NCBI RefSeq assembly: GCF_011065895.1
Contig: NZ_JAALCR010000048.1
Span: 1-36,356 of the forward strand
Source: Paludisphaera rhizosphaerae
GTDB taxonomy: Bacteria; Planctomycetota; Planctomycetia; Isosphaerales; Isosphaeraceae
DNA length: 36,356 nt
Direction of reading: 5' to 3'
The notes under the pieces are model-generated. The model was not told where the DNA came from. It ran no database searches and was given only the letters and a program-made list of their open reading frames with translations. The number at the start of each line of letters is the position of its first letter. The stretch's first letter is position 1. Shown one piece after another: positions 175-36,356 of the stretch. Made by a program: the position numbers and the translations under genes.

Positions 175-3100
175 TCAATCGATGTAGATAAATTCCTTGA
201 CGTTAAACAACGCGTGAGCCAGGTCGGTCCAGGCGGCCCGATCGTCGGCCGCGCCCTCGCGCCGGGCCTTCAAGTAGGCGAGGCATCGCGACGACTCGTC
301 GGCCGTCGGCGGTCGGGCGAAAGCTTCCTGGTAGAGACGCTCGATGCGCTTCGCATCGGTCGATTCCTCGGCCGTCACGCGTGCGGCCCAGTCTCCGGCA
401 AGCTGCATCACCAGCGGGTCGTTCAGCAGGGCGAGCGCCTGGGCGGGGACGTTGGAGGCGTGGCGACGGCCCATCGTGGAGAACGGGACCGGGGCGTCGA
501 AGACCAGGAACAGCGGGTTCAGGAAGTTGCGCCGGACCTGAAGATACAGGCTGCGGCGGCCGTCGCCATCGAGGGGTCCGCTCGCCTTGGGCCGGCCTCG
601 GCCCTCCATGAACGGCGAGAGATAGGGCGGCGTGCTCGGGCCTTCCTGGCGACGGTCCAGCCGCCCCGCGACGGCGAGCAGCGAGTCGCGCACGGCCTCC
701 GCCTCCAGGCGACGGACGTTGGCCCGGTGAAGCAAGGCGTTGGTCGGGTCGTTGCGGTCGGCCTCGGGCGTGGCGCGCGCGGCCATGCGATAGGCCGACG
801 ACTCCACCATCAGCCGGTGCATCGCCTTGATCGACCATCCCCGACGCACGAATTCGGCCGCGAGCCAGTCGAGCAACTCCGGATGAGACGGCCCCTGCCC
901 CATCGCGCCGAAGTCGTCCGTCGACCGCGCCAGGCCCTCGCCGAAATGGTGCTTCCAGATCCGATTGACGATCACCCGGGCGATCAGCGGATTGGACTGG
1001 ACGTCGACCATCGCGCGGGCCAGTTCCAGCCGGCCGCTGCCGGTCGCATCGGGCGCAGGCCCGCCGCCGCCAAGGATCGCCGGCAAACGTCGCGGAGAGG
1101 CATCGCCAAGCGTCCTCGGGCTCCCCCGCAGCATGACGAATTCGTCCTCGCCATCGCCGTCGACCGCGGCCGGGGCCAGCGCGGGGGTCGGGATGCGGCC
1201 CTCGATCTCGCGATAGCCCGCGACCGCCCCCGACAGCCGCGCGGCCAGGGGTGAATCCACCCCGTTGAGGTCGCGGACGAGGGCCTCCACGTCAATCATG
1301 ACGGAGGCCGGGATGGGAACATCGGGAGACGTAGTGTCGTCGGTCGCGCGGACGGCCAGGACGTCGATCCGCCCCCGACCGTCCACCAGGGTCGTCGTCA
1401 CGCCGCCGAACTCGGCCGTGGCTCCGTCGGAGGCTTCCAAACAGGCCCGACGACCGACCCAGGACGTCACGTCGAACGAATACCAGCACGGGGCTTTCGG
1501 CGAGTTCACCGGGATGGTGAGGCCGTCGTAGATCGGCCCTCGGATTTTCTCGAACCCGTCGATCACGACGTTGACCCGGCCGCCCGTCCCCGAAGCCAGC
1601 ACGTGCAGGCGACGGCCCGCGATGGTGAACGTTGGCGACCGCGCCACGCCGAGCAGCCGGTCCGAAATCAGCCCGCTCTCCAGCGATCCGGCCGGAACCG
1701 CGACCAGCCGGGGATGCTCATGCAACTCGATTCGAAACGGTGATGCGCAACGTTCGAAGGCGTCTCCCGTCGTCCGCCAGGCCGAGAGTTCCTCGACCGA
1801 CTGGTCCGAAACCGTAACGGCCTTCCCCCCTCGCGGGAGAAGGTGGCCCGAAGGGCCGGATGAGGGGGCGATCGGCTTCGCGTTCAGGTCAGTCGTTTGG
1901 ATGCGCGGCCCGCGCCTGTCGTCCCCCTCATCTGACCGCTGCGCGGTCTGTCTTCCCCCGCCAGGGGGGAAGACGGTTCCGAGCAGGCCCTCGACTTCCC
2001 TCCGGCGCGGCTCGGGGAGCTTCGGGGCGGCTTCAGCGAGGATATCGGCGAGGGCCGCCTTGCGGGCGCGAAGCTCCGCGACGAGCGGCGCGATGCGGAC
2101 ATCGGAGTCAATGAACGCCTGTTGATGCCGGGTGCTGCGGAGGAAGCCGGCGAGAGCGTAGTAATCCTTCTGGGTGATCGGGTCGAACTTGTGGTCGTGG
2201 CAGCGGGCGCAGCTTACCGTCAGGCCAAGGAACGTCTTGGAGAGGACGTCGATCTGGTTGTCGACCCGACGCACCTCCTCGTCGCGGAGGTCCAGCGGCG
2301 AGTGAACCCCCTCGCCCAGCCAGTAGAAGCCGGTCCCCTGGATCGACTCGTTCGAGCCGTCGACGGGGTTGCGACGCGGCTCGGGCAGCAGGTCGCCGGC
2401 CATCTGCTCGACGACGAATTGGTCGTACCGGAGGTCGGCGTTGAAGGCGCGGACGACGTAGTCGCGATAGCGCCAGGCGTGGAGGATGTCGTAGTCGAAC
2501 TCGTGCCCGGACGATTCGGCGAAGCGGACGAGGTCCAGCCAGTGGCGGCCCCAGCGCTCGCCGTAGGCGGGGCTGGCCAGGAGGCGCTCGACGAGCCGCT
2601 CGTAGGCGTCGGCCCGATCGTCGGCGAGGAACGCGGCGACTTCCTCGGGCGTGGGGGGAAGTCCGGTGAGGTCGAACGTCAGGCGGCGGATCAGAGTGCG
2701 ACGGTCGGCCTCGGGGGCGGGCTCCAACCCCTTCGCGGTCATCGCCGCGAGCAGGAAGCCGTCGATCGCCCCTCGCGGCCAGGCGCCGGCGACGACCGGG
2801 GGCTCGACCGCGTGGATCGGCTGGAACGACCAGAAGCCGGCGCGGCGGGCGAACTCGGGCGAGCCTTCGAGGCCGCTTTTCGCGGGGCCGGCCGCGGCGG
2901 ACTTCTCGGGCTCAGGCCCCCACGCCGCGCCCCGGGCGACCCACTTCGCGAGGACGTCGATCTCCTCCTGAGCGAGCTTCGACTTGGGGGGCATGCGAAC
3001 GTCCCCCTCGTAGCGGATCGCCTCGACGAGCATGCTGGCCTCGGCGTCGCCCGGCTTGATCGCCGGGCCGGACGAACCGCCCGCGAGAGCCCCCGCACGC

Positions 3101-10360: not shown

Positions 10361-11029
10361 TTACGGGTCGGAGGAAGCTGGCGGCGGGCCCGACTGTGGG
10401 ACGTCGAAGGCGGGCTCGATCCAGAGCACCATGCCCTCAGTCGGCCCCTCTGGCGTGGTGGACTGGCCCTTGGCGTCGCGAGGGCCCATGAACCGACGGT
10501 GGAACAGGACGACGGGCTTGTCGGCGGCCGACTGACGGCTGGTGGAGAATCGACTGCCGCCCGATGAGCCCGTGCCGGCGTACCAGTCTTTCGGCTCGGC
10601 CGTCGACGTCGCGACCGTCCCATCGCATAAGACGTCGACCCGCCAGTCCTCGCCGTCCTTGACCTGGTTCAAAGCGACGACGTGGACGCCGGGCTCCAGC
10701 GGGGTGGAGACCTTGGGAGACGGAGTCGCGTTCCGCTCGATGCCTCGGGTCGCCAGGCAGAGGCGGTATCGGCGGCCGGCGGGGAGATAGAACTCCCAAC
10801 GGTTGTCGTCGTACCAGAGTTCCTGCCGATGGACCACGGCGATCATCCCCAGGTCGTCCACCTCCAGCTCACGCGCCAGGGGTTTCAGGGCGTTGATCCG
10901 GGTCGTGAGGTCGGCGCTCCGTCGGCGCTCGAGCGAGTAGGACGTCCAGACGGCCACGGCCGCCGTAAGCAGGATGAGCGTCCGCAGGCCGACCTGCCAG
11001 CGTCGGCGAGGCGCATCGGGCGGCGTCAT
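10361..11029 (-). CDS. Anchored hypothetical protein, cassette copy 1, second gene
   Basis: The function is not recognised. The 222-residue product starts with a basic stretch and one transmembrane segment (RRRWQVGLRTLILLTAAVAV, residues about 8-27), a pattern frequent in planctomycete proteins. A soluble, probably periplasmic domain follows with FYLPAGRRYRLCLATRGIE and a C-terminal MVLWIEPAFD segment. The ATG at 11029 overlaps the TGA of the preceding gene as ATGA, implying translational coupling; the longer in-frame start at 11086 would lie inside that gene. The protein is clearly paralogous to the product of 11753-12424, with near-identical N-termini and shared YRLCLATRGIE, PLEPG and PVVLF segments. 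Confidence 0.8.
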   Translation of the reverse strand: MTPPDAPRRRWQVGLRTLILLTAAVAVWTSYSLERRRSADLTTRINALKPLARELEVDDLGMIAVVHRQELWYDDNRWEFYLPAGRRYRLCLATRGIERNATPSPKVSTPLEPGVHVVALNQVKDGEDWRVDVLCDGTVATSTAEPKDWYAGTGSSGGSRFSTSRQSAADKPVVLFHRRFMGPRDAKGQSTTPEGPTEGMVLWIEPAFDVPQSGPPPASSDP

Positions 11030-11640
11030 GGAACCGTCCCCGGCGCGCCGATCGACAGCTCCAGGAGGTTCCCGGAGGAGATCCATTGGGGAAGGTCGGG
11101 CGGCCGGATCGCGTCGGGAATGCTGATCCGCAAGAGGACCGTCGGCTTCGTCGCGTCCGGGGTGATCGTCACCGCCTCGGACCGGCCGATCTGCTCAATC
11201 TTCAGCTCGTGCGCGTGCTCGCGCAGCAGCCGAGCCAGCTCGGGGCTGTCGTACCCCGACGTCCCGCTTCCGCCGGCGAACTTCGTATAAACACGGACTT
11301 GATTCGGCGCTTCTTCGCGCAAGCGGACCCGGGCGATCAACTCCTGCGGGTCCGAGTGCGATGAGGTGCTGGTGGACGATCCTCCCGCCATCTGAGACCG
11401 CACCGCGAGAGTGGTCTTGGGAGGCAAGTGGACCCGCCAGGCGAAGTGGAGAGGCTCCCCTGTGTCGAGGGCCTTGAGATAGATCAGGGTCGGATCATCG
11501 ACGGCCAGCTCCCCCGCGGCGTCGACCAGCCGGGCGTGATGCGCCGCCAGCCCCATCCGCTCGCCCCCTGCCCGGAAGGCGAGCACGCCGCCGATCAGGA
11601 TGACGACGACGAGAGCCAGGTCGATCGCATTTCGCATCAT
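11026..11640 (-). CDS. Anchored hypothetical protein, cassette copy 1, first gene
   Basis: The function is not recognised. The product has 204 residues with an N-terminal membrane segment (about 7-25, LALVVVILIGGVLAFRAG) and an extracytoplasmic region containing DDPTLIYLKALDTGEPLHFAWR and LARLLREHAHELKIEQ-type segments, each repeated almost verbatim in the paralog at 12421-13107. GGAG lies eight bases before the ATG, within the string GGAGCAGG that is also found before the paralog. It ends in an ATGA overlap with the second cassette gene. The coupling and the shared single-anchor topology suggest the two products act together at the membrane. Confidence 0.8.
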   Translation of the reverse strand: MMRNAIDLALVVVILIGGVLAFRAGGERMGLAAHHARLVDAAGELAVDDPTLIYLKALDTGEPLHFAWRVHLPPKTTLAVRSQMAGGSSTSTSSHSDPQELIARVRLREEAPNQVRVYTKFAGGSGTSGYDSPELARLLREHAHELKIEQIGRSEAVTITPDATKPTVLLRISIPDAIRPPDLPQWISSGNLLELSIGAPGTVP

Positions 11641-11752: not shown

Positions 11753-12424
11753 CTATGGGGCGGAGGAAGTCGGGCGCGGACCCGGCCACGGAAAGTCGGA
11801 GTCGGGCTCGATCCAGAGCGCGACGCCATCGGTCGGCCCCCGGGGCAGGAAGGGCGTCCCATGGACGTCGCGTCCCCTGAATCGCTCGCGGAACAGAACG
11901 ACGGGCCTGTCGTCGTCGGAGGACGACTGCTCGCCCATCGGGACTTGACTGCCGCCCACCCCGCCAAGATTGCTGCGCCATTCCTTCGGCTCCGTCGTCG
12001 ACGCGACGACCATTCCATCGCATGAGACGCCGAGACGCCAGCCCTCGCCGCCCGGGGGAACAACCATGGCGATGACGTGTCGGCCGGGCTCCAGCGGGGC
12101 GGAGGCCTGGGGCGGCGGCGGCGGCGCGCCTTCCTCAATGCCTCGGGTCGCGAGGCAGAGGCGGTATCGGCGGCCGGGAGGGAGGTAAACGTCCCAGCGG
12201 TCCGAGTTGTAGATAAATTGCGCCTGGACCACGGCGATCCTTCCCGGGTCGTCCACCACCAGTTCACGCGGCAGGGGAGACTGGGGGTAGAGTTTGTCCG
12301 TGAGATCGGCGATCCGATAGCTTTCCAGCGCGTACGTCAGCCCGACGGCGACGGCCGCCGTCAGCAGGATCAACGTCCGGACGCCCACCTGCCAGCGGCG
12401 TCGAGGGGCGTCGGGCGGCGTCAT
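11753..12424 (-). CDS. Anchored hypothetical protein, cassette copy 2, second gene
   Basis: The function is not recognised. The product has 223 residues and is paralogous to the product of 10361-11029. The N-terminus (MTPPDAPRRRWQVG, then a transmembrane segment) is almost identical, followed by VYLPPGRRYRLCLATRGIE, a proline-rich insert (PPPPPQ) and a C-terminal VALWIEPDSD segment. By eye the two are about half identical. The start at 12424 overlaps the stop of the first cassette gene as ATGA; the longer frame to 12685 lies inside that gene and reads as low-complexity Arg/Pro sequence, so it was rejected. Confidence 0.8.
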   Translation of the reverse strand: MTPPDAPRRRWQVGVRTLILLTAAVAVGLTYALESYRIADLTDKLYPQSPLPRELVVDDPGRIAVVQAQFIYNSDRWDVYLPPGRRYRLCLATRGIEEGAPPPPPQASAPLEPGRHVIAMVVPPGGEGWRLGVSCDGMVVASTTEPKEWRSNLGGVGGSQVPMGEQSSSDDDRPVVLFRERFRGRDVHGTPFLPRGPTDGVALWIEPDSDFPWPGPRPTSSAP

Positions 12425-13107
12425 GGTGGGAAACTCCCCGGCGAGCCGACCGAGATCTCCAGGAGATTCGCCCAGTCGACCGACCTGGAGAGGTCGGGCG
12501 GGCGGAGCGCCTCGGGGAGGCCGACCCGCAGGAGGACCGTCGGCTTCTGCGCGTTCGGGTCGATCGCCGTCACGCCGGCCCGGCCGAGCTGCTCGACCTT
12601 GAGCTCGTGCGCGTGCTCGCGCAGCAGCCGGGACAGCCCGGGGATGTCGGCGTACCCCGAATATCCGAGGTGGCCGGCGATCCATATCGAAGCGCGGACC
12701 TGATCCGGCGCGTCTTCGTACAGCTGAACGCCGTCGAAGGCGACCTCGGCGAAGCCGACCCCGCCCGTTGGTCCGGACGGCCCTCCCAAGCTCGAGGTCG
12801 TCCCTCCCATCCGGGTTTGGATGTGGAGGTTGATCTTGCCGGGCATTTTATGTCGCCACGCGAAGTGGAACGGCTCGCCGGTGTCTATGGCCTCGAGATA
12901 AATCAAGCTCGGATCCTCACCCGGAAGTTTCGACAAGGCGCTGCTCCGGGCGCGAGCCTCCTCGCGCCGGGCGCGATACTCCTCCAGGGCCATCCGCTCG
13001 CGGCCCGCCTGGAAGGCGAAGACGCCGCCGATCAGGACGACCGCCGCGATGACCAGGTCGATCGGGATGACCGTCGCGAGGATCCGGTGGATTGCGTTCC
13101 GCCTCAT
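12421..13107 (-). CDS. Anchored hypothetical protein, cassette copy 2, first gene
   Basis: The function is not recognised. The 228-residue product has a membrane segment at about residues 15-33 (PIDLVIAAVVLIGGVFAFQAG), a charged stretch (REEARARSS) and a soluble domain sharing DPSLIYLEAIDTGEPFHFAWR, LSRLLREHAHELKVEQLGR and QKPTVLLRVGLPEALRPPDL with the paralog at 11026-11640. It carries additional Gly/Ser-rich residues around 100-120. The ATG at 13107 is preceded by GGAGCAGGGGAG. It is the first gene of the duplicated cassette, and a strong hairpin (13182-13212) separates it from the upstream isomerase gene. Confidence 0.8.
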   Translation of the reverse strand: MRRNAIHRILATVIPIDLVIAAVVLIGGVFAFQAGRERMALEEYRARREEARARSSALSKLPGEDPSLIYLEAIDTGEPFHFAWRHKMPGKINLHIQTRMGGTTSSLGGPSGPTGGVGFAEVAFDGVQLYEDAPDQVRASIWIAGHLGYSGYADIPGLSRLLREHAHELKVEQLGRAGVTAIDPNAQKPTVLLRVGLPEALRPPDLSRSVDWANLLEISVGSPGSFPP

Positions 13108-14198: not shown

Positions 14199-14582
14199 GG
14201 CTGCTGCTCCTTCGTCGCGAGGCCCGCCGGCCGACCACGAATCCGCCGCCGCCCTCGAAGTTCTCAGGCTACCACGAGGGCCGCCCCGCCAGAACGAGCC
14301 TCCGCCGCGAAGGGGCTTGCGGCGGGCGTCGCCGGCGGTGGAACATAAAAGGGCGAGACCAGCCCAAGCTGTGCCTCCGTCCCCTCTCCCGTCGGCAGAG
14401 GGCGGTCGCGCAGCGACGGGTGAGGGTTGTCGGAGTGCAGAGGGCGAAACGAACTCGCGCCGGCCGAGACCGCCGTGGCGGCCGCGAATCGCGACGCCCC
14501 TCATCCGGCCTTCGGCCACCTTCTCCCGGGGGGAGAAGGGACGAGTAGCGTCGACCCCGTCCCGCAAGCAGGACCCCGCCCC
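14199..14582. other. 384-bp divergent intergenic region dominated by repeat R3
   Basis: This region separates the minus-strand isomerase-like gene from the plus-strand cytochrome/copper-monooxygenase gene. Positions 14381-14540 are taken up by repeat R3, described separately. I see no credible gene in it and no convincing promoter; the reading frames that cross it are continuations of neighbouring shadow frames. Confidence 0.6.
14381..14540 (+). repeat. Divergent palindromic repeat copy R3
   Basis: This copy has the family architecture with different sequence. Hairpin A has CCTCT/AGAGG arms; hairpin B is GTCGC-GCA-GCGAC; a closing stem pairs TGAGGG (about 14421-14426) with CCCTCA (about 14502-14507); hairpin C is GGCC-TTC-GGCC; and hairpin D is a perfect 9-bp CCTTCTCCC-GGG-GGGAGAAGG (14519-14539). 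The roughly 75-bp apical segment is unrelated in sequence to the other copies. It lies between divergent genes, ending 42 nt before the ATG of the downstream gene. Confidence 0.75.
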
Positions 14583-21424: not shown

Positions 21425-22645
21425 TCAACGCCACCGCAGGCGGGCGACGCGCGGCTGGCGGGGGTGGGCGCCGTTGATAAGGACGGCGACGTGGTCGACG
21501 GTGGGGACCACGACGTCGGGGCGGGCGCCGCGAGTGAGCCGACCCAAGGAGATCTTGCCGGTGGACGCGCCTCCCACGGCGAAGGCTCGGTTGGCGGGCC
21601 GGCAGCGGTAGAAGTCGCCGTTCCCCTTGCCGTAGAGAACCGTCAGGCTCTGGTCGCCGGAGTTGGAGACGGCCAGGTCGAGCCGGCCGTCGCCGTTGAA
21701 GTCGGCGGCGGCGATCGCGTTGGGGGCCTTGCCCACGGGGAGGGTATACCTCGCGGTGAAGTTCCCGCTGCCGTCGCCGATCAGGATGCTGACGTTGTTG
21801 CTTTCCTCATTGGCCGCGGCGATGTCGGGGACGCCGTCACGGTTGAAATCGCCGATCGCCAGCGCGGTCGGGGCCGTCCCGGCGTTGAAGAAGCGGACGT
21901 CCTGGAAGGTCCCGTCGCCGTCCCCCAGCAGGACGCCGACCTTGTTCGCCGAAGGCCCGGCGTCGGCTCCGTAGGTCACGGCCAGGTCGGGAATCCCGTC
22001 GCCGTTGAAGTCGCCCACGACGAGCGAATCCGAGTTCGCGCCGGCGGCGACGAACTGGACGTCCTGGAAGGTGCCGTCGCCGTTCCCCAACAGGATGCCG
22101 ACCGAGGCGCTCTCATCGGCGGCGATGTTCGCCGTGGCGACGTCCAACTTGCCGTCGCGGTTGAAGTCGCCGACGACCACGTAGACTGGCTCCGCCCCCG
22201 CGCCCTGGGTGATGGGATCGCCGAAGGCCAGGTTCCCCGCGCCGGTGCTCTCGTTCAGGATCACGCTGAGCTGGTTGGTGGAGAACGTGCTGGTCGCCAG
22301 GTCGGGCTTGCCGTCGTTGTTGAAGTCGCCCACGGCGATCGAGATGGTCGACGGGAAGAACGGCGACGGGTCGCCGGTGAAGTACTGGGCGGCCTGGAAG
22401 GTGCCGTCGCCGTTCCCCAGCGTCACGCCCAGATTCGCGCCCCCCAGCGCGGTGGCCAGGTCGAGCTTGCCGTCGCCGTCGAAGTCGGCCAGGCCCGTCG
22501 AGTTCGGGTTCCCCTCGAAGGCGACCGGGGCCGGGGGGCCGAACTGGACCAGACCCAACGTCATCAACTGACGTCCTTCCAGCAGGTCGAATCCCCTCGT
22601 CCCGCCCGTCCTACGCCGTCGGGTCGTCGTCTGGTGCGTCCTCAT
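21425..22645 (-). CDS. FG-GAP/VCBS seven-bladed beta-propeller protein, paralog 3
   Basis: This 406-residue protein is built almost wholly of FG-GAP/VCBS repeats. Six blades carry the Ca-binding type DFxxDGxxD motif (for example DFDGDGKLDLA, DFNNDGKPDLA, DFNGDGIPDLA) and a seventh, degenerate one is GRLTRGARPDVVV, consistent with a closed seven-bladed propeller. The N-terminus has no hydrophobic signal peptide. Instead it has a basic stretch (TTRRRRTGGTRG) followed by LLEGRQLMT, related to the LEPR-XLL-type N-terminal signature of planctomycete exported proteins. The C-terminus is basic (PRVARLRWR). The ATG at 22645 has AGGGAG nine bases upstream. It is the last and most divergent of three tandem paralogs. 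An extracellular binding or structural role is inferred. Confidence 0.88.
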   Translation of the reverse strand: MRTHQTTTRRRRTGGTRGFDLLEGRQLMTLGLVQFGPPAPVAFEGNPNSTGLADFDGDGKLDLATALGGANLGVTLGNGDGTFQAAQYFTGDPSPFFPSTISIAVGDFNNDGKPDLATSTFSTNQLSVILNESTGAGNLAFGDPITQGAGAEPVYVVVGDFNRDGKLDVATANIAADESASVGILLGNGDGTFQDVQFVAAGANSDSLVVGDFNGDGIPDLAVTYGADAGPSANKVGVLLGDGDGTFQDVRFFNAGTAPTALAIGDFNRDGVPDIAAANEESNNVSILIGDGSGNFTARYTLPVGKAPNAIAAADFNGDGRLDLAVSNSGDQSLTVLYGKGNGDFYRCRPANRAFAVGGASTGKISLGRLTRGARPDVVVPTVDHVAVLINGAHPRQPRVARLRWR

Positions 22646-22785
22646 GAATGGCGACTCCCTGGATGCTCTAGCCTGTGGAATCGAGGCAAACGTCCCATTT
22701 GCTGCATTCAGACGTTTCCGCGATCAGAAGCCTAGAACAAGAAGGGAACGCCGTCTGGGAAACCTCGAGGAGCCGCGACGACGGG

Positions 22786-24045
22786 TCAACGGCGCCGGTG
22801 GAGAGGTCGCGAGAACCGGGAGTGGTTCAGGAGTACGGTGACGCGGCCGGAGCCGTTGAGGACCGCAAGGTCCGGGAGCGTCCGGTTGGCGATGCGGCCG
22901 ACGGCGATGTTTCCCGAAGCCCCTGCGCCGGCCGAGAAGAGGCTCTGGCGAGGACCGAAGCGGACGAAGTCGCCGTTCCCCTTGCCGTAGAGGACGGTCA
23001 GGCGTCCGTCGGAGTCGAGCACGCTCAGGTCGAGCTTGCCGCTGCCGTTGAGGTCGGCGGCCGTAACGGCGATGGGGATGGAGGAAAGCGGGAGAACGGA
23101 GCGCCGCGTGAAGCCTCCCCGGCCGTCGCCGATCAGGACGCCCACGCTCTTGAGGAAGTCGTCGGTCGGCGAGGAGCCGGCGTTGGCCGTCGCGATGTCG
23201 AGGACGCCGTCGCCGTTGAAGTCGCCCATGGTCAGGGCTCTCGGCGCCGAGCCGGCCAGGAACAGACTCGGCGTTCCGAACGTGCCGTCGCCCTCGCCCA
23301 GCAGGATCCCGATCGTCGATTCGAGCGACTGCCGGCGATTGGCGAAGGTCACAGCCAGGTCGACGACGCCGTCGCCGTTGAAGTCGGCCGCGGCGACGGT
23401 TTCGATGGTCGCCAGGTCGGCGGAGGGAAGGTCCAGGCCGTTCTGGAACGTGCCGTCGCCGTTGCCCAGGAAGACGCCGCCAGGGCGCGAGCCGTAGCGG
23501 AACCCCGCCGCGACGTCGAGCTTGCCGTCGCCGTTGAAGTCGCCCACGGCCAGGCTGTACGAGAGCCCCCGCGCGGGGGTCGTCGCGGCGGCTTCGAAGC
23601 TCAGGGAACCCGACCCCGCCCCCGTGTTGAGCAGCACGCCGAAGTCGCTGGGGTAGCCGGGAAGGCTGGAGCCGCTACGGGCGTATGCAAGATCCGGCTT
23701 GCCGTCGTTGTTGAAGTCGCCCACGATCACCGTCGTCGTCGATCCGCTCGCGGCGGCCGAACTCGCCGCCGTGTCGAAGTACCGCGCCGGCCCGAACTTC
23801 CCGTTCCCATAGCCCAGCGCGACGCCGACCTGCGAGTTCCCGGCGGCCATCGCCATGTCGAGGAGGCCGTCGCCGTTGAAATCCGCCAGGACCGGCGAGT
23901 TCGTCGCCAGCTCAAACGGCGTCGACGAGCTCGGGACGAACCGGACCGCGCCGTAGGTCATCAGCCGACGATCCTCCAACGTCTCGACGCACCGGGTCGT
24001 TCGTCGCCGCCGCCGTCGCCGAGTTGTACCCCAATTGATTCGCAT
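22786..24045 (-). CDS. FG-GAP/VCBS seven-bladed beta-propeller protein, paralog 2
   Basis: This 419-residue protein has an N-terminus of TTRRRRRRRTTRCVETLEDRR followed by LMTYG, then seven FG-GAP blades: five canonical DFN(G/N)DGxxD motifs, one with changed ligand residues (DLNGSGKLDLS) and the degenerate final blade (GRIANRTLPDLAVL). It ends in the basic tail NHSRFSRPLHRRR, shared with paralog 1. The ATG at 24045 has AGGAGG about nine bases upstream. A gap of 148 nt with a strong hairpin (24146-24174) separates it from paralog 1, so it is probably transcribed on its own. No catalytic residues are recognised. Confidence 0.88.
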   Translation of the reverse strand: MRINWGTTRRRRRRRTTRCVETLEDRRLMTYGAVRFVPSSSTPFELATNSPVLADFNGDGLLDMAMAAGNSQVGVALGYGNGKFGPARYFDTAASSAAASGSTTTVIVGDFNNDGKPDLAYARSGSSLPGYPSDFGVLLNTGAGSGSLSFEAAATTPARGLSYSLAVGDFNGDGKLDVAAGFRYGSRPGGVFLGNGDGTFQNGLDLPSADLATIETVAAADFNGDGVVDLAVTFANRRQSLESTIGILLGEGDGTFGTPSLFLAGSAPRALTMGDFNGDGVLDIATANAGSSPTDDFLKSVGVLIGDGRGGFTRRSVLPLSSIPIAVTAADLNGSGKLDLSVLDSDGRLTVLYGKGNGDFVRFGPRQSLFSAGAGASGNIAVGRIANRTLPDLAVLNGSGRVTVLLNHSRFSRPLHRRR

Positions 24046-24145
24046 CGTCGGAGCCTCCTCGTGTTTTCTGGTTCACAGGTTCGAGATTGGCGCCCTGGAC
24101 GGTGAACACCTCCCCTCGTGCTCAGGAACGGCGGATCCGCCCCCC

Positions 24146-24174
24146 CCCCCGCCGACGGGAGGAGTCGGCGGGGG
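24146..24174. terminator. GC hairpin after FG-GAP paralog 1
   Basis: CCCCCGCCGAC (24146-24156) pairs perfectly with GTCGGCGGGGG (24164-24174) across a 7-nt loop, next to a run of ten or more Cs at 24139-24150. It lies 20 nt past the stop of the minus-strand gene at 24194, in the 148-bp gap before the next paralog. Confidence 0.65.
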
Positions 24175-24193
24175 CGGTGTCGACGGTTCAATC

Positions 24194-25459
24194 TCAACGA
24201 TGCCGACGCAGCGGCCGCGAGAACCGGGAGCGGTTGAGCATCACGTTGACGTGGCCAGACGAACCGGCCGCGACGACGACGTCGGGGAGCGTGCGATTGG
24301 CGACGCGGCCCACGGCGATGGAGTTGCTGGAGGCGTCGGCGTCGACCGGGAAGACGCTCTGGCGGGGGCGGAATTTCACGAGGCCGCCTCGACCGTCGCC
24401 GTAGAGGACCGTCAATGAGTCGTCGGCGGGGGTGAGGACGGCCAGGTCGAGCCGGCCGTCGCCGTTGAAGTCGGCGGTTGCGACGGCGGTGGCGGCGGAG
24501 GCGAACGGGATCGTCGCCTGCTTCGTGAAGGCTCCCGCGCCATCGCCCAGCAGGACGGTCGCCTGATTGGTCCCGGCGCTGGTGTAGCCGCCGAAGGAGA
24601 CGGCGGAGGCCGCGGCGATGTCGAGGGCGCCGTCGCGGTTGAAGTCGCCCACGGCCAGCGAGGTCACGCTCGTCCCGACGTCGAGGTCCGTCATGTCCTG
24701 GAACGAACCGGTCCCGTCGCCCAGCAGGACCCCGGCTTTGTAAACGACGGGAGGACGCGGGTAGACGTCGGAACGATTGAAGTAGGTCGCGGTCAGGTCG
24801 AGCTTGCCGTCGTGGTTGAAGTCGGCGGTCCCCAGCGAGACGAAGTTCTGAAGGAAGTAGCTCTTCATAACAGGCTGGAACGTGCCGTCGCCGTGCCCCA
24901 GAATGACGCCGATGCCGTTCAGCGAATCATCCGCGTAGCCCACGGCGACGTCCAGTTTGCCGTCGCCGTTGAAGTCGCCCGCCGTGAGGCACCGCACCCT
25001 CCATCCAGCGTCCACGGTCGTCACGGGGGCGAAACTCAAGGCGCCGCCGCTCGCGCTGGTGTTGATCAGGACGCCCAGCGGGGTGTCTCCATTGCTGTAA
25101 TTGTATGTGGTCATCGCCAGGTCGGGCTTGCCGTCGTTGTTGAAGTCACCCACGACCAACCCCGTCACGTTCAGATTCGAAGGAGACGGGAGATACTGCG
25201 GAGCCCGAAACGCGCCGTTCCCCTTGCCCAGCGCGACTCCCACGACGGTCGACGTCCTCGTGAACGTCGCCAGGTCGAGGTTGCCGTCGAGATTGAAATC
25301 CGCGAGCACCGCCGTCTGGGGTGCGAGGTCGAAGGCGATCGGCGTCCCCGTCACGAACCGCGCCGCGCCATAGGTCATGAGCCGGCGATCCTCCAGCGCT
25401 TCCGGGGCCTGCCCAATCGTCCCGCGCCGCCGACTCGTCATCGAGCGATAGGTGTTCAT
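24194..25459 (-). CDS. FG-GAP/VCBS seven-bladed beta-propeller protein, paralog 1
   Basis: This 421-residue protein starts MNTYRSMTSRRRG and has ALEDRRLMTYGAARF near residue 21, the same N-terminal signature as paralog 2. Seven blades follow: six with DFNxDGxxD motifs (DFNLDGNLDLA, DFNNDGKPDLA, DFNGDGKLDVA, DFNHDGKLDLT, DFNRDGALDIA, DFNGDGRLDLA) and the degenerate GRVANRTLPDVVV. The C-terminal tail is NRSRFSRPLRRHR. The ATG at 25459 has AGGGAGA six bases upstream; the longer frame to 25795 runs into the divergent gene and was rejected. A perfect TATAAT lies about 55 nt upstream. The protein is probably exported and calcium-binding. Confidence 0.88.
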   Translation of the reverse strand: MNTYRSMTSRRRGTIGQAPEALEDRRLMTYGAARFVTGTPIAFDLAPQTAVLADFNLDGNLDLATFTRTSTVVGVALGKGNGAFRAPQYLPSPSNLNVTGLVVGDFNNDGKPDLAMTTYNYSNGDTPLGVLINTSASGGALSFAPVTTVDAGWRVRCLTAGDFNGDGKLDVAVGYADDSLNGIGVILGHGDGTFQPVMKSYFLQNFVSLGTADFNHDGKLDLTATYFNRSDVYPRPPVVYKAGVLLGDGTGSFQDMTDLDVGTSVTSLAVGDFNRDGALDIAAASAVSFGGYTSAGTNQATVLLGDGAGAFTKQATIPFASAATAVATADFNGDGRLDLAVLTPADDSLTVLYGDGRGGLVKFRPRQSVFPVDADASSNSIAVGRVANRTLPDVVVAAGSSGHVNVMLNRSRFSRPLRRHR

Positions 25460-28204: not shown

Positions 28205-28627
28205 ATGACGACCTTCACGACGAAGCGCGAGATCCCTGCAATCCCGTCCGCCGTCTTCGCCGCGTTTCGGGATCCGGTACGCCTCGCCCGGTGGTGGGGG
28301 CCGGACGGCTTCACCAACACGTTCGAGACGTTCGAGTTCCAGCCCGGCGGGCGCTGGGTCTTCGTCATGCACGGGCCCACCGGGGCGAACTACGACAACG
28401 AATCGCGGTTCGAGACGATCGTTCCGGACGAACAGGTCGTCATCCGACACGTCTCGCAGCCGCATTTCCGGCTCACCGTCACGCTCCAGGAGCAGCCGGC
28501 CGGAACCCTTCTCCTGTGGGAGCAGGCGTTCGACGACGACGACGTCGCGAAGGCCGTCCGCCACATCGTCGAGCCCGCGAACGAGCAAAACCTCGACCGG
28601 CTCTCGGCGGAGGTTCAAGCTGGCTGA
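28205..28627 (+). CDS. SRPBCC/AHSA1-domain protein
   Basis: This 140-residue single-domain cytoplasmic protein has the START/SRPBCC fold of the Aha1-C-terminal-like group. Typical features are an N-terminal strand REIPAIPSAVFAAF, then LARWWGPDGF, EFQPGGRWVFVM, the YDNESRFETIVP region and a C-terminal helix. These proteins bind hydrophobic ligands or act in stress responses; no specific ligand can be assigned. GAGGAG stands six bases before the ATG. It is divergent from the CPBP gene with a 111-bp gap, and its stop is 18 nt from repeat R4. Confidence 0.92.
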   Translation: MTTFTTKREIPAIPSAVFAAFRDPVRLARWWGPDGFTNTFETFEFQPGGRWVFVMHGPTGANYDNESRFETIVPDEQVVIRHVSQPHFRLTVTLQEQPAGTLLLWEQAFDDDDVAKAVRHIVEPANEQNLDRLSAEVQAG

Positions 28628-28645
28628 TCGGGGCGGCGTCGGACG

Positions 28646-28804
28646 GTCTTCCCCCCTCGCGGGGGAAGACAGATCGCGCAGCGATCAGATGAGGGGGACG
28701 ACCGGCGTTGCACGCGCCTCCGATCGGTGGGCCTGAACGCGGCGCCGATCCCCCCTCATCCGGCCCTGCGGGCCACCTTCCCCCGCGAGGGGGGAAGGCC
28801 GTTA
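28646..28804 (+). repeat. Palindromic repeat copy R4 (best complete copy)
   Basis: This 159-bp copy has every element: hairpin A, CTTCCCCC/GGGGGAAG around CTCGC; hairpin B, GATCGC-GCA-GCGATC; the closing stem GATGAGGGGG with CCCCCTCATC; a variable apical part; hairpin C, GGCCC-TGC-GGGCC; and hairpin D, CTTCCCCC/GGGGGAAG around GCGAGG. It fills most of the 199-bp gap between two convergent stop codons, 18 nt from one and 22 nt from the other, where it could act as a bidirectional terminator. Confidence 0.9.
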
Positions 28805-28826
28805 TGGCTTTGCCATCTCATTCTGA

Positions 28827-29267
28827 TCACGGCTTCTGCAGCTTGTACTCCACGAAGAACTGGAGCGAGCCGTCGGCCGTCTTGAACTCCTTGGGGCGTT
28901 CCTTGCCGGAGATGTCGTAGCAGACTTTCAGGGAGTCGCCGTTGCGCTCGTAGATGGCCGGGATGGTCTTGCCCTTGTTGGGGCCGTCGGTGCCGGTGAT
29001 GTCGAGCGTCTTGGGCTTGGCGGCGGGGTCGCGCTTGCAGTCGCCCTTGTCGACCTGGCCGTTGATGGTCACCGTGTACTTGTCGTCCTTGACCTCCAGC
29101 TTGAACGTCTTCAGGAAGTCGTCGGGCAAGGGCTGGCCGGCCATCTCCCCCTTGGCCGGGATCCAGACGCCCTCCATCTGGTCGTTCACGTCGGCGGCGT
29201 CCGCGCCCGGTACGGCCGCGCAGCAGGTCAGGAGCATAGCGAAGGCGAAGAGCAGCTTGAGCGACAT
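28827..29267 (-). CDS. TIGR03067-family exported protein
   Basis: This 146-residue protein has an N-terminal signal (MSLKLLFAFAMLLTCCAAVPG); two adjacent cysteines near residue 15 could make it a lipoprotein, although the lipobox is not canonical. The mature part matches the TIGR03067 pattern common in planctomycetes: a DQMEGVWIPAKGEMAG start, YTVTINGQ, PKTLDITGTDGPNKGKT, PAIYERNGDSLKVCYD and the RPKEF segment near the end. The function of the family is unknown. The ATG at 29267 has GAGGA eight bases upstream. A longer frame exists to 29411 but would displace the signal peptide. Confidence 0.9.
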   Translation of the reverse strand: MSLKLLFAFAMLLTCCAAVPGADAADVNDQMEGVWIPAKGEMAGQPLPDDFLKTFKLEVKDDKYTVTINGQVDKGDCKRDPAAKPKTLDITGTDGPNKGKTIPAIYERNGDSLKVCYDISGKERPKEFKTADGSLQFFVEYKLQKP

Positions 29268-29356
29268 GGGGGACGTCCTCAGGGGTTGCGGTTCGGTTCG
29301 ACGATGTTCTGAAAAGATACACGCCGGCGAACCGCGACGCCAATCATCCGAATCTG

Positions 29357-29405
29357 GAACCGTAACGGCCTTCCCCCGCGAAGGGGGGAAGACTTTTCGG
29401 AACAG
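29357..29405. repeat. Mini-derivative of the palindromic repeat
   Basis: Only one outer hairpin, CTTCCCCC/GGGGGAAG (29370-29391), is present, flanked on one side by GGAACCGTAACGGC, matching the flank of R2, and on the other by TTCGGAACAGCC. It looks like the two ends of the element joined with hairpins B and C and the core deleted. It lies 3 nt downstream of the stop of the small MFS partner gene (minus strand) and could serve as its terminator. Confidence 0.65.
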
Positions 29406-29407
29406 CC

Positions 29408-29533
29408 TCACCTCTGAAACAGCGGCAGCGACTTGCCCACGCTCTGGACCACGCCCCAGGCCAGCGGGATCGCCACGATGAGCCAGGAAACGACGAGGCG
29501 GGCCGTCGAGGATTTCGATTCGGTGGTGTTCAT
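29408..29533 (-). CDS. Small single-pass partner of the OFA-type MFS transporter
   Basis: This 41-residue protein has a short polar N-terminus (MNTTESKSST), one transmembrane segment (about residues 12-32, VVSWLIVAIPLAWGVVQSV) and a SLPLFQR tail. Its ATG overlaps the TGA of the transporter gene (ATGA), so it is translationally coupled. Similar small ORFs after oxalate/formate-type MFS genes are annotated, as I recall, as 'MFS transporter small subunit'. It probably associates with the transporter in the membrane; that is inference from position and size. It is below the length usually kept by gene callers. Confidence 0.82.
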   Translation of the reverse strand: MNTTESKSSTARLVVSWLIVAIPLAWGVVQSVGKSLPLFQR

Positions 29534-36172: not shown

Positions 36173-36236
36173 GATCGAGCGGCGTCAATCGTCCCCCCTC
36201 CCGCCGGGCTGACGACCTGACACATTTTCGGCGGCG

Positions 36237-36330
36237 GCGATCAGATGAGGGGGACGACCGCCGTTGGGTTCACGTCCGGCGGCTGGTTCCTGATGCGACG
36301 CCGATCCCCCCTCATCCGGCCCTGCGGGCC
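36237..36330 (+). repeat. Core-only palindromic repeat copy R5
   Basis: Only the inner part of the element remains: the right arm of hairpin B (GCGATC), the closing stem GATGAGGGGG with CCCCCTCATC, the apical hairpin (GCCG..CGGC) and hairpin C, GGCCC-TGC-GGGCC. Outer hairpins A and D are missing and the flanks are unrelated. It lies 64 nt after the stop of the large surface protein gene, in the same orientation as R1, R3 and R4. Nothing else is visible in 36173-36356. Confidence 0.8.
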
Positions 36331-36356
36331 AATACTGTTCGGCACGGGAATTGAGC

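Follow-up and report, generated by a model that had tools for sequence, protein, structure and literature searches.

REP and REPIN sequences bearing the GTAG or CGTC tag are described as short, high-copy palindromes that occur as singlets and as inverted dimers, also in Planctomycetes (PMC3733652, in part), and Class 3 TnpA(Y1) genes are reported mainly from Planctomycetes, Acidobacteria and Proteobacteria, with adjoining structures that can reach about 600 copies per genome (PMC6006769, in part). RIME are rhizobial intergenic repeats with conserved sequence and structure, which were set aside in screens for sRNAs (PMC2573895 and PMC2245857, both in part). Rickettsia palindromic elements (RPE), repeats of 105-146 bp, are fused in frame in conserved proteins, and the CIR repeats of Caulobacter and relatives, intergenic and about 110 bp long, are common to alphaproteobacteria (both from an excerpt of PMC2229807). 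From biophysics, mini-hairpin DNA of the d(GCGAAGC) type is known as a motif of extraordinary stability and nuclease resistance, given a loop of GNA or GNNA and two or more G-C pairs; work on DNA aptamers puts the melting point of GCGAAGC itself at 78 °C (PMC4686876, in part).

The window considered here, i.e., the whole stretch of 36,356 nucleotides from Paludisphaera rhizosphaerae, harbors a structured element at about 28643-28807, between the ends of two convergent ORFs (Table 1). The initial annotation, made from the letters alone, had placed a folded repeat at this site, and the fold is indeed far stabler than dinucleotide shuffles, both as RNA (28630-28815, z -9.5) and as DNA (28640-28810, z -7.6), with 0 of 200 shuffles as stable in either case. 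Hairpins A and B are followed by a closing stem of GATGAGGGGG and CCCCCTCATC round a variable apical part, then by hairpins C and D, and energy folding also gives an alternative in which the outer hairpins A and D form one long stem. The full element consists of two related modules in inverted order, each combining the outer palindrome CTTCYCCC..GGGRGAAG with an inner hairpin and the fixed GATGAGGGG; the stem sequence of the inner hairpin is free, while its loop is mostly GNA or GNNA and closed by C-G. All five copies that had been claimed for the window were found (Table 1; the one described here within 28640-28810), and the hairpin B variants GACCGC/GCGGTC, GATCGC/GCGATC and GTCGC/GCGAC are as first reported, the copy then labelled R3 being the diverged one, whose hairpin B is GTCGC-GCA-GCGAC at 14405-14417.

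Table 1. Location of the element, its parts and related features in the window (positions without prefix) and on other contigs of the genome (prefix C).
Feature	Location	Strand	Remarks
Element copy cut by contig start	1-146	+	Hairpin B GACCGC-GAA-GCGGTC
PSCyt1/PSCyt2/PSD1 protein, 1040 aa	175-3297	-	Element copy 1809-1990 between PSCyt2 and PSD1
Full copy within coding sequence	1809-1990	-	In frame, about 57 residues
Diverged copy (R3)	14383-14538	+	Left module 14383-14426, right module 14497-14538
Flanking ORF, AHSA1 domain	28205-28627	+	Convergent with 28827-29411
Full element copy	28643-28807	+	Between ends of two convergent ORFs
Hairpin A	28646-28670	+	Outer palindrome of left module
Hairpin B	28672-28686	+	GATCGC-GCA-GCGATC; inner hairpin of left module, GNA loop
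Fixed GATGAGGGGG	28688-28697	+	Left arm of closing stem
Variable apical part	28698-28750	+	
Fixed CCCCCTCATC	28751-28760	+	Right arm of closing stem
Hairpin C	28762-28774	+	GGCCC-TGC-GGGCC; inner hairpin of right module, GNA loop on - strand
Hairpin D	28776-28798	+	Outer palindrome of right module; pairing with hairpin A also possible
Flanking ORF, no Pfam match	28827-29411	-	Convergent with 28205-28627
Lone outer palindrome	29370-29391	+	Perhaps remnant of a copy
Copy truncated on both sides	36234-36331	+	Without hairpin A and left arm of B; hairpin C cut by MITE
MITE end (CAATACTGTTCGGCACG)	36330-36356	+	Inserted in hairpin C; contig ends within MITE
Complete MITE copies	C4:236409-236630, C6:49216-49437, C9:226088-226309, C18:108151-108372, C19:17253-17474, C53:7085-7307, C53:17773-17995		
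Copies with nested CCATGGCCACGC..GCGTGGCCATGG palindrome	C43:14352-14656, C4:336704-336963, C6:276043-276342		

In the Paludisphaera genome (8.05 Mb, 110 contigs, the window being on C48) the exact module pattern CCCTCATC-N8..24-CTTCYCCC-N2..8-GGGRGAAG was matched by 301 modules (156 + 145), and its reversed form, used as control, by none. A profile search of 1.22 Mb of the genome gave 118 raw matches, reduced to 64 once overlaps were removed, 29 of them full length. The 95 modules obtained with a looser pattern comprised 34 inverted pairs and 27 single modules, the gap within pairs being 31-32 nt in seven, 56-69 nt in 26 and 181 nt in one, and there are size classes of 170 nt, 120 nt and, for monomers, about 45 nt. 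Lone outer palindromes are scarce (5 of 84). The apical part of some copies holds other palindromic repeats; in three copies one such repeat, CCATGGCCACGC..GCGTGGCCATGG, is nested there (Table 1).

Covariation was tested on 30 aligned genomic copies with a five-helix structure, and the excess looked for following the initial annotation emerged in part: both sides had changed in 5 of 45 pairs, whereas column shuffles gave 2.3 and attained the observed count in 2 of 500, but further pair types did not exceed the shuffles (13 vs. 12.3, 143 of 500), and these counts are not independent, since the copies share ancestry. Sliding the structure left at most one pair with both sides changed. Across the 30 copies 96.2% of the cells were paired, a figure that includes one pair (columns 65-112) unpaired in 27 of them. 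The bulk of the evidence sits in hairpin B, which reads GATCGC/GCGATC in 18 copies, GACCGC/GCGGTC in nine and otherwise in three (one of them GACGC/GCGTC with a longer loop), its varying pair being T-A in 20 copies, C-G in ten and broken in none. Covariation within this genome is thus modest. The stronger test is the one not conditioned on the inner hairpin: when the genome's own modules were picked by their outer motifs, an inner stem of at least 4 bp was present in 97 of 98, with respect to 13% of shuffles, and 12 different 5' arms occurred among them.

Loops were counted on distinct inner segments in which a stem of at least 4 bp encloses three or four bases. With the groups pooled and each segment counted once, 77 of the 97 segments with a stem were closed by a loop that reads GNA or GNNA on one of the strands (G..A loop); stem-bearing shuffles gave 8-12%, and at least one G..A loop was carried by 32 of 34 different arms. 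By group, the loop was found in 25 of 29 stems in the own genome, 19 of 20 in the same genus (P. soli, strain 71-10 and four loci of other genus members), 34 of 49 in clostridia, where AAA is the commonest of the other 15, and 16 of 17 in alphaproteobacteria. Segments without such a stem numbered 2 of 31, 4 of 24, 13 of 62 and 27 of 44, respectively, the alphaproteobacterial inner hairpin being often imperfect (perfect stem of at least 4 bp in 17 of 44 distinct segments). Clostridial segments were mostly typed from the module listing of the 24 genomes to which the pattern scan had led, and the counts for other genomes leave out exact matches to the scan pattern, because the pattern fixes the hairpin. 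Of the 94 triloops of the own genome, 91 begin with G and all 94 end in A, with a free base between the two; the heptamer GCGAAGC is present in many of the 30 aligned copies. The inner hairpins therefore mostly share the loop class and the closing C-G pair of the d(GCGAAGC)-type mini-hairpins, and we know of no link between these and a bacterial repeat family. Energy models give the GNA and TNC strands the same stability and do not separate DNA from RNA for the loops, so that the argument for a DNA fold draws on the literature. Single-stranded DNA would be the favored folded form, with the loop rule as its best sign, while the imperfect alphaproteobacterial stems and the other loops of clostridia speak against it. 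The rule provides a concrete means of asking whether repeats of this sort work as DNA or RNA.

Two copies of the element lie in frame within proteins. The insert in the PSCyt2/PSD1 protein (Table 1) is missing from all five genus orthologues. The second, at C4:362468-362640, is carried by a HemG-like FAD protein (oxidase) whose Pfam Amino_oxidase match is split in two stretches, and in its four closest orthologues there is no insert, the flanking parts being joined with 2 to 5 codons between. The linkers have diverged, which blurs the exact target sites. A third copy lies in a PMT-family ORF. In behavior the element resembles RPE, in frame as it is in two proteins and missing in their orthologues, although the host belongs to another phylum than Rickettsia; the copies in the HemG-like enzyme and in the PSCyt2/PSD1 protein provide simple tests of gene tolerance.

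Twelve Rhizobium plasmid sequences, hand-picked (L251, L252 and L254-L263) from matches listed for 60 of 931 records and aligned, differ in how much of the element they hold between two ABC transporter genes. Six sequences keep the element, two have partly lost it, three retain only one outer palindrome and the R. hidalgonense allele has a degenerate palindrome. We read the short alleles as deletions, which would have run between the two outer palindromes, because the filled allele of WSM1689 shares its left palindrome and flank with them; alternatively, the element may have inserted at a pre-existing palindrome.

The initial annotation had suggested mobilization of the REP/MITE type. The REP-like part of this proposal stood, in the form of a mobile element with in-frame inserts missing in relatives, while a MITE reading of the basic element found no support: inverted ends are present, but a search reaching 24 nt out on both sides of 44 full copies detected no target duplication, the counts at the ends being not above shuffled pairing. 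A single odd offset pair (18 and 11 nt out) had three shared 5-mers as compared to at most two in 20 shuffles, an excess that we take as relatedness of the copies. A true MITE of 222-223 bp with ends CAATACTGTTCGGCACG nevertheless carries the 120-nt element as its core. It has 26 ends in the own genome, ten facing pairs among them, and five of its seven complete copies (those on C4, C6 and C18 and the two on C53, the latter two read by eye) show a target duplication of 9-10 bp, absent from the copies on C9 and C19. At six of eight MITE sites, the window end included, at least one flank lies in the inner hairpin of a module, and for this reason the MITE seems to use module hairpins as landing sites. 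The MITE is one route of spread for the 120-nt subfamily; no transposase was found for it.

Modules are present in Planctomycetota, Alphaproteobacteria and Clostridia. A 34-base right-module pattern occurs in at least 120 stretches of a species-level genome collection, which by title include 84 alphaproteobacterial, 26 planctomycete (from two genomes) and nine clostridial ones, and the 24 genomes behind the pattern loci, picked for having modules as they were reached through the pattern scan, all hold between 2 and 416 modules, with 0 for the reversed control in each. Among Planctomycetota the pattern was found in 3 of 199 sampled genomes, that of P. rhizosphaerae included, and by DNA search matches were found in all six genomes of the genus, in 4 of 19 genomes from the family's other genera and in none of 15 elsewhere in the class. 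This patchy distribution suggests horizontal spread, and the same module in three phyla implies transfer or a shared copying system. A rhizobial copy was matched by 186 plasmid records, in 22 cases across 80% or more of its length; 135 are from Rhizobium, 24 are typed as conjugative and 24 as mobilizable. One module was matched at 80-90% by 6 of 50,697 phage records. A 32-base right-module pattern was also seen in 39 viral-contig stretches (L297-L335), possible carriers between hosts. A literature search covering few subscription journals showed, among the papers listed, no description of the module family across phyla, and searches with the sequence strings of the element gave, among the matches listed, none relevant by title; to our knowledge, repeats of such look have been described genus by genus.

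Modules are common in the Rhizobium, Mesorhizobium and Shinella genomes tested, as expected of RIME, which could be compared by description only, and differ from them in occurring also in Planctomycetota and Clostridia. The title of the original 1995 paper on RIME is said to name a two-component gene region, reportedly chvI-chvG; we found modules in 0 of 9 rhizobial loci round a ChvG-type sensor gene, the original RIME strains being, as far as we know, not among them. Whereas CIR repeats carry a conserved GANTC, here GANTC is present in 9 of 30 copies, with no fixed sequence. We class the element as of the REP/RIME kind, outside the REP-RAYT, MITE and Rfam families, and, with RIME compared by description, do not file it as RIME itself.

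The explanation that we consider fairly probable is a mobile palindromic element, REP/RIME-like and non-autonomous, that acts through single-stranded DNA. In its active, single-stranded form, the GNA hairpin and the fixed GATGAGGGG motif would be recognized by a trans-acting enzyme, which would insert the element without duplicating the target; host genes would survive by virtue of an open reading frame through the element and of inserts falling in loops or linkers, and plasmids or phages may carry the element between phyla. More tentatively, the copies of the different phyla might form a single family, whose common parts are only GATGAGGGG, the outer palindrome and the GNA/GNNA mini-hairpin, and whose movement, in the form of single-stranded DNA, would depend on an undescribed enzyme other than a Y1 transposase. 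A classical REP/REPIN moved by RAYT (Y1 HUH transposase), with the enzyme later lost from many hosts, is in our opinion unlikely. Like REP sequences, the module is a high-copy palindromic unit, and its inverted dimers, single modules and rhizobial RL pairs resemble REP singlets and dimers; a Y1_Tnp match was present in 8 of 9 planctomycete genomes searched, and both the host range of Class 3 TnpA(Y1) and its high-copy adjoining structures would fit (PMC6006769, in part). Of 44 copies, 15 have CGTC, the tag of one REP super-family, at their left end, thus a minority and at one end only, and 16 have a C before the left end, as compared to 26% C in the flank. Against this, GTAG is absent from the hairpin ends and occurs anywhere in just 3 of 44 copies, each module has two hairpins, and the REP-associated tyrosine transposase to which the initial annotation had pointed was sought and showed no link to the modules. 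At E 0.001 a Y1_Tnp (PF01797) match was missing in 11 of 18 module-bearing genomes, one of which has 265 modules, and one genus member (G002) in which the element is abundant has no match either. The 26 Y1 loci read, at 23 distinct places, comprise the own one, 10 of 39 planctomycete matches and all 15 from module-bearing genomes; none has a module closer than about 1.5 kb. A Y1/RAYT transposase is not the general mobilizer, though its loss after amplification would be conceivable. No mobilizing enzyme was found for the element, and in a non-exhaustive look at 1.22 Mb and 80 loci no module pair was noticed round a gene, as a parent element would have. Ahead of the only Y1_Tnp match of the own genome (locus C45:508-3843) stand direct repeats of GAAATTCGGTGTCAGTTCTATTTCCTT, which have no relation to the element.

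An RNA function, as transcription terminator or stabilizer of mRNA 3' ends spread by copying and conversion, appears more improbable still. The position of the copy at 28643-28807 between the ends of convergent ORFs would suit it, as would the intergenic location of 33 of 41 copies (20 tandem, 9 convergent and 4 divergent, vs. about 56, 17 and 27% of intergenic bases), these gene contexts coming from a crude home-made ORF scorer that calls the copy at 28643-28807 tandem though its ORFs converge. The orientation preference in tandem pairs is, however, slight (11 same vs. 7 opposite, counted by hand after dropping two of the 20 rows, namely that miscalled copy and the second half of one element), copies lie in frame within genes, and no Rfam family matched the window at gathering score; at a loose E-value, 11 matches to the element all remained below gathering score, the best being to a plant-type miRNA model with 37 of 137 bits. 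The paired changes themselves might derive from hairpin-templated repair (quasi-palindrome correction) instead of selection on the fold, an origin that we regard as rather doubtful. Whole stems differ between fixed flanks, as templating would allow, and one hairpin B pair, with both of its bases changed in 10 of the 30 copies, is never broken. Templating by the opposite arm does not reach the loop, though, where G and A are kept and the middle base varies, and beyond the inner hairpin the fixed motifs persist as well. The selection on a folded molecule proposed in the initial annotation is accordingly upheld as far as compensated stems and a G..A loop rule over many stems go, and it is likely rather than shown, because hairpin-templated repair can mimic it by making compensated changes without selection.

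Apart from the element, the window shows further repetition. Degenerate direct repeats, spaced by about 147-177 nt, extend over positions 21554-25400 and perhaps encode a repeat protein, and the stretches 10830-11627 and 12225-13064, similar neighbors about 1.4 kb apart and 77-80% identical in pieces, are probably the product of a gene duplication.
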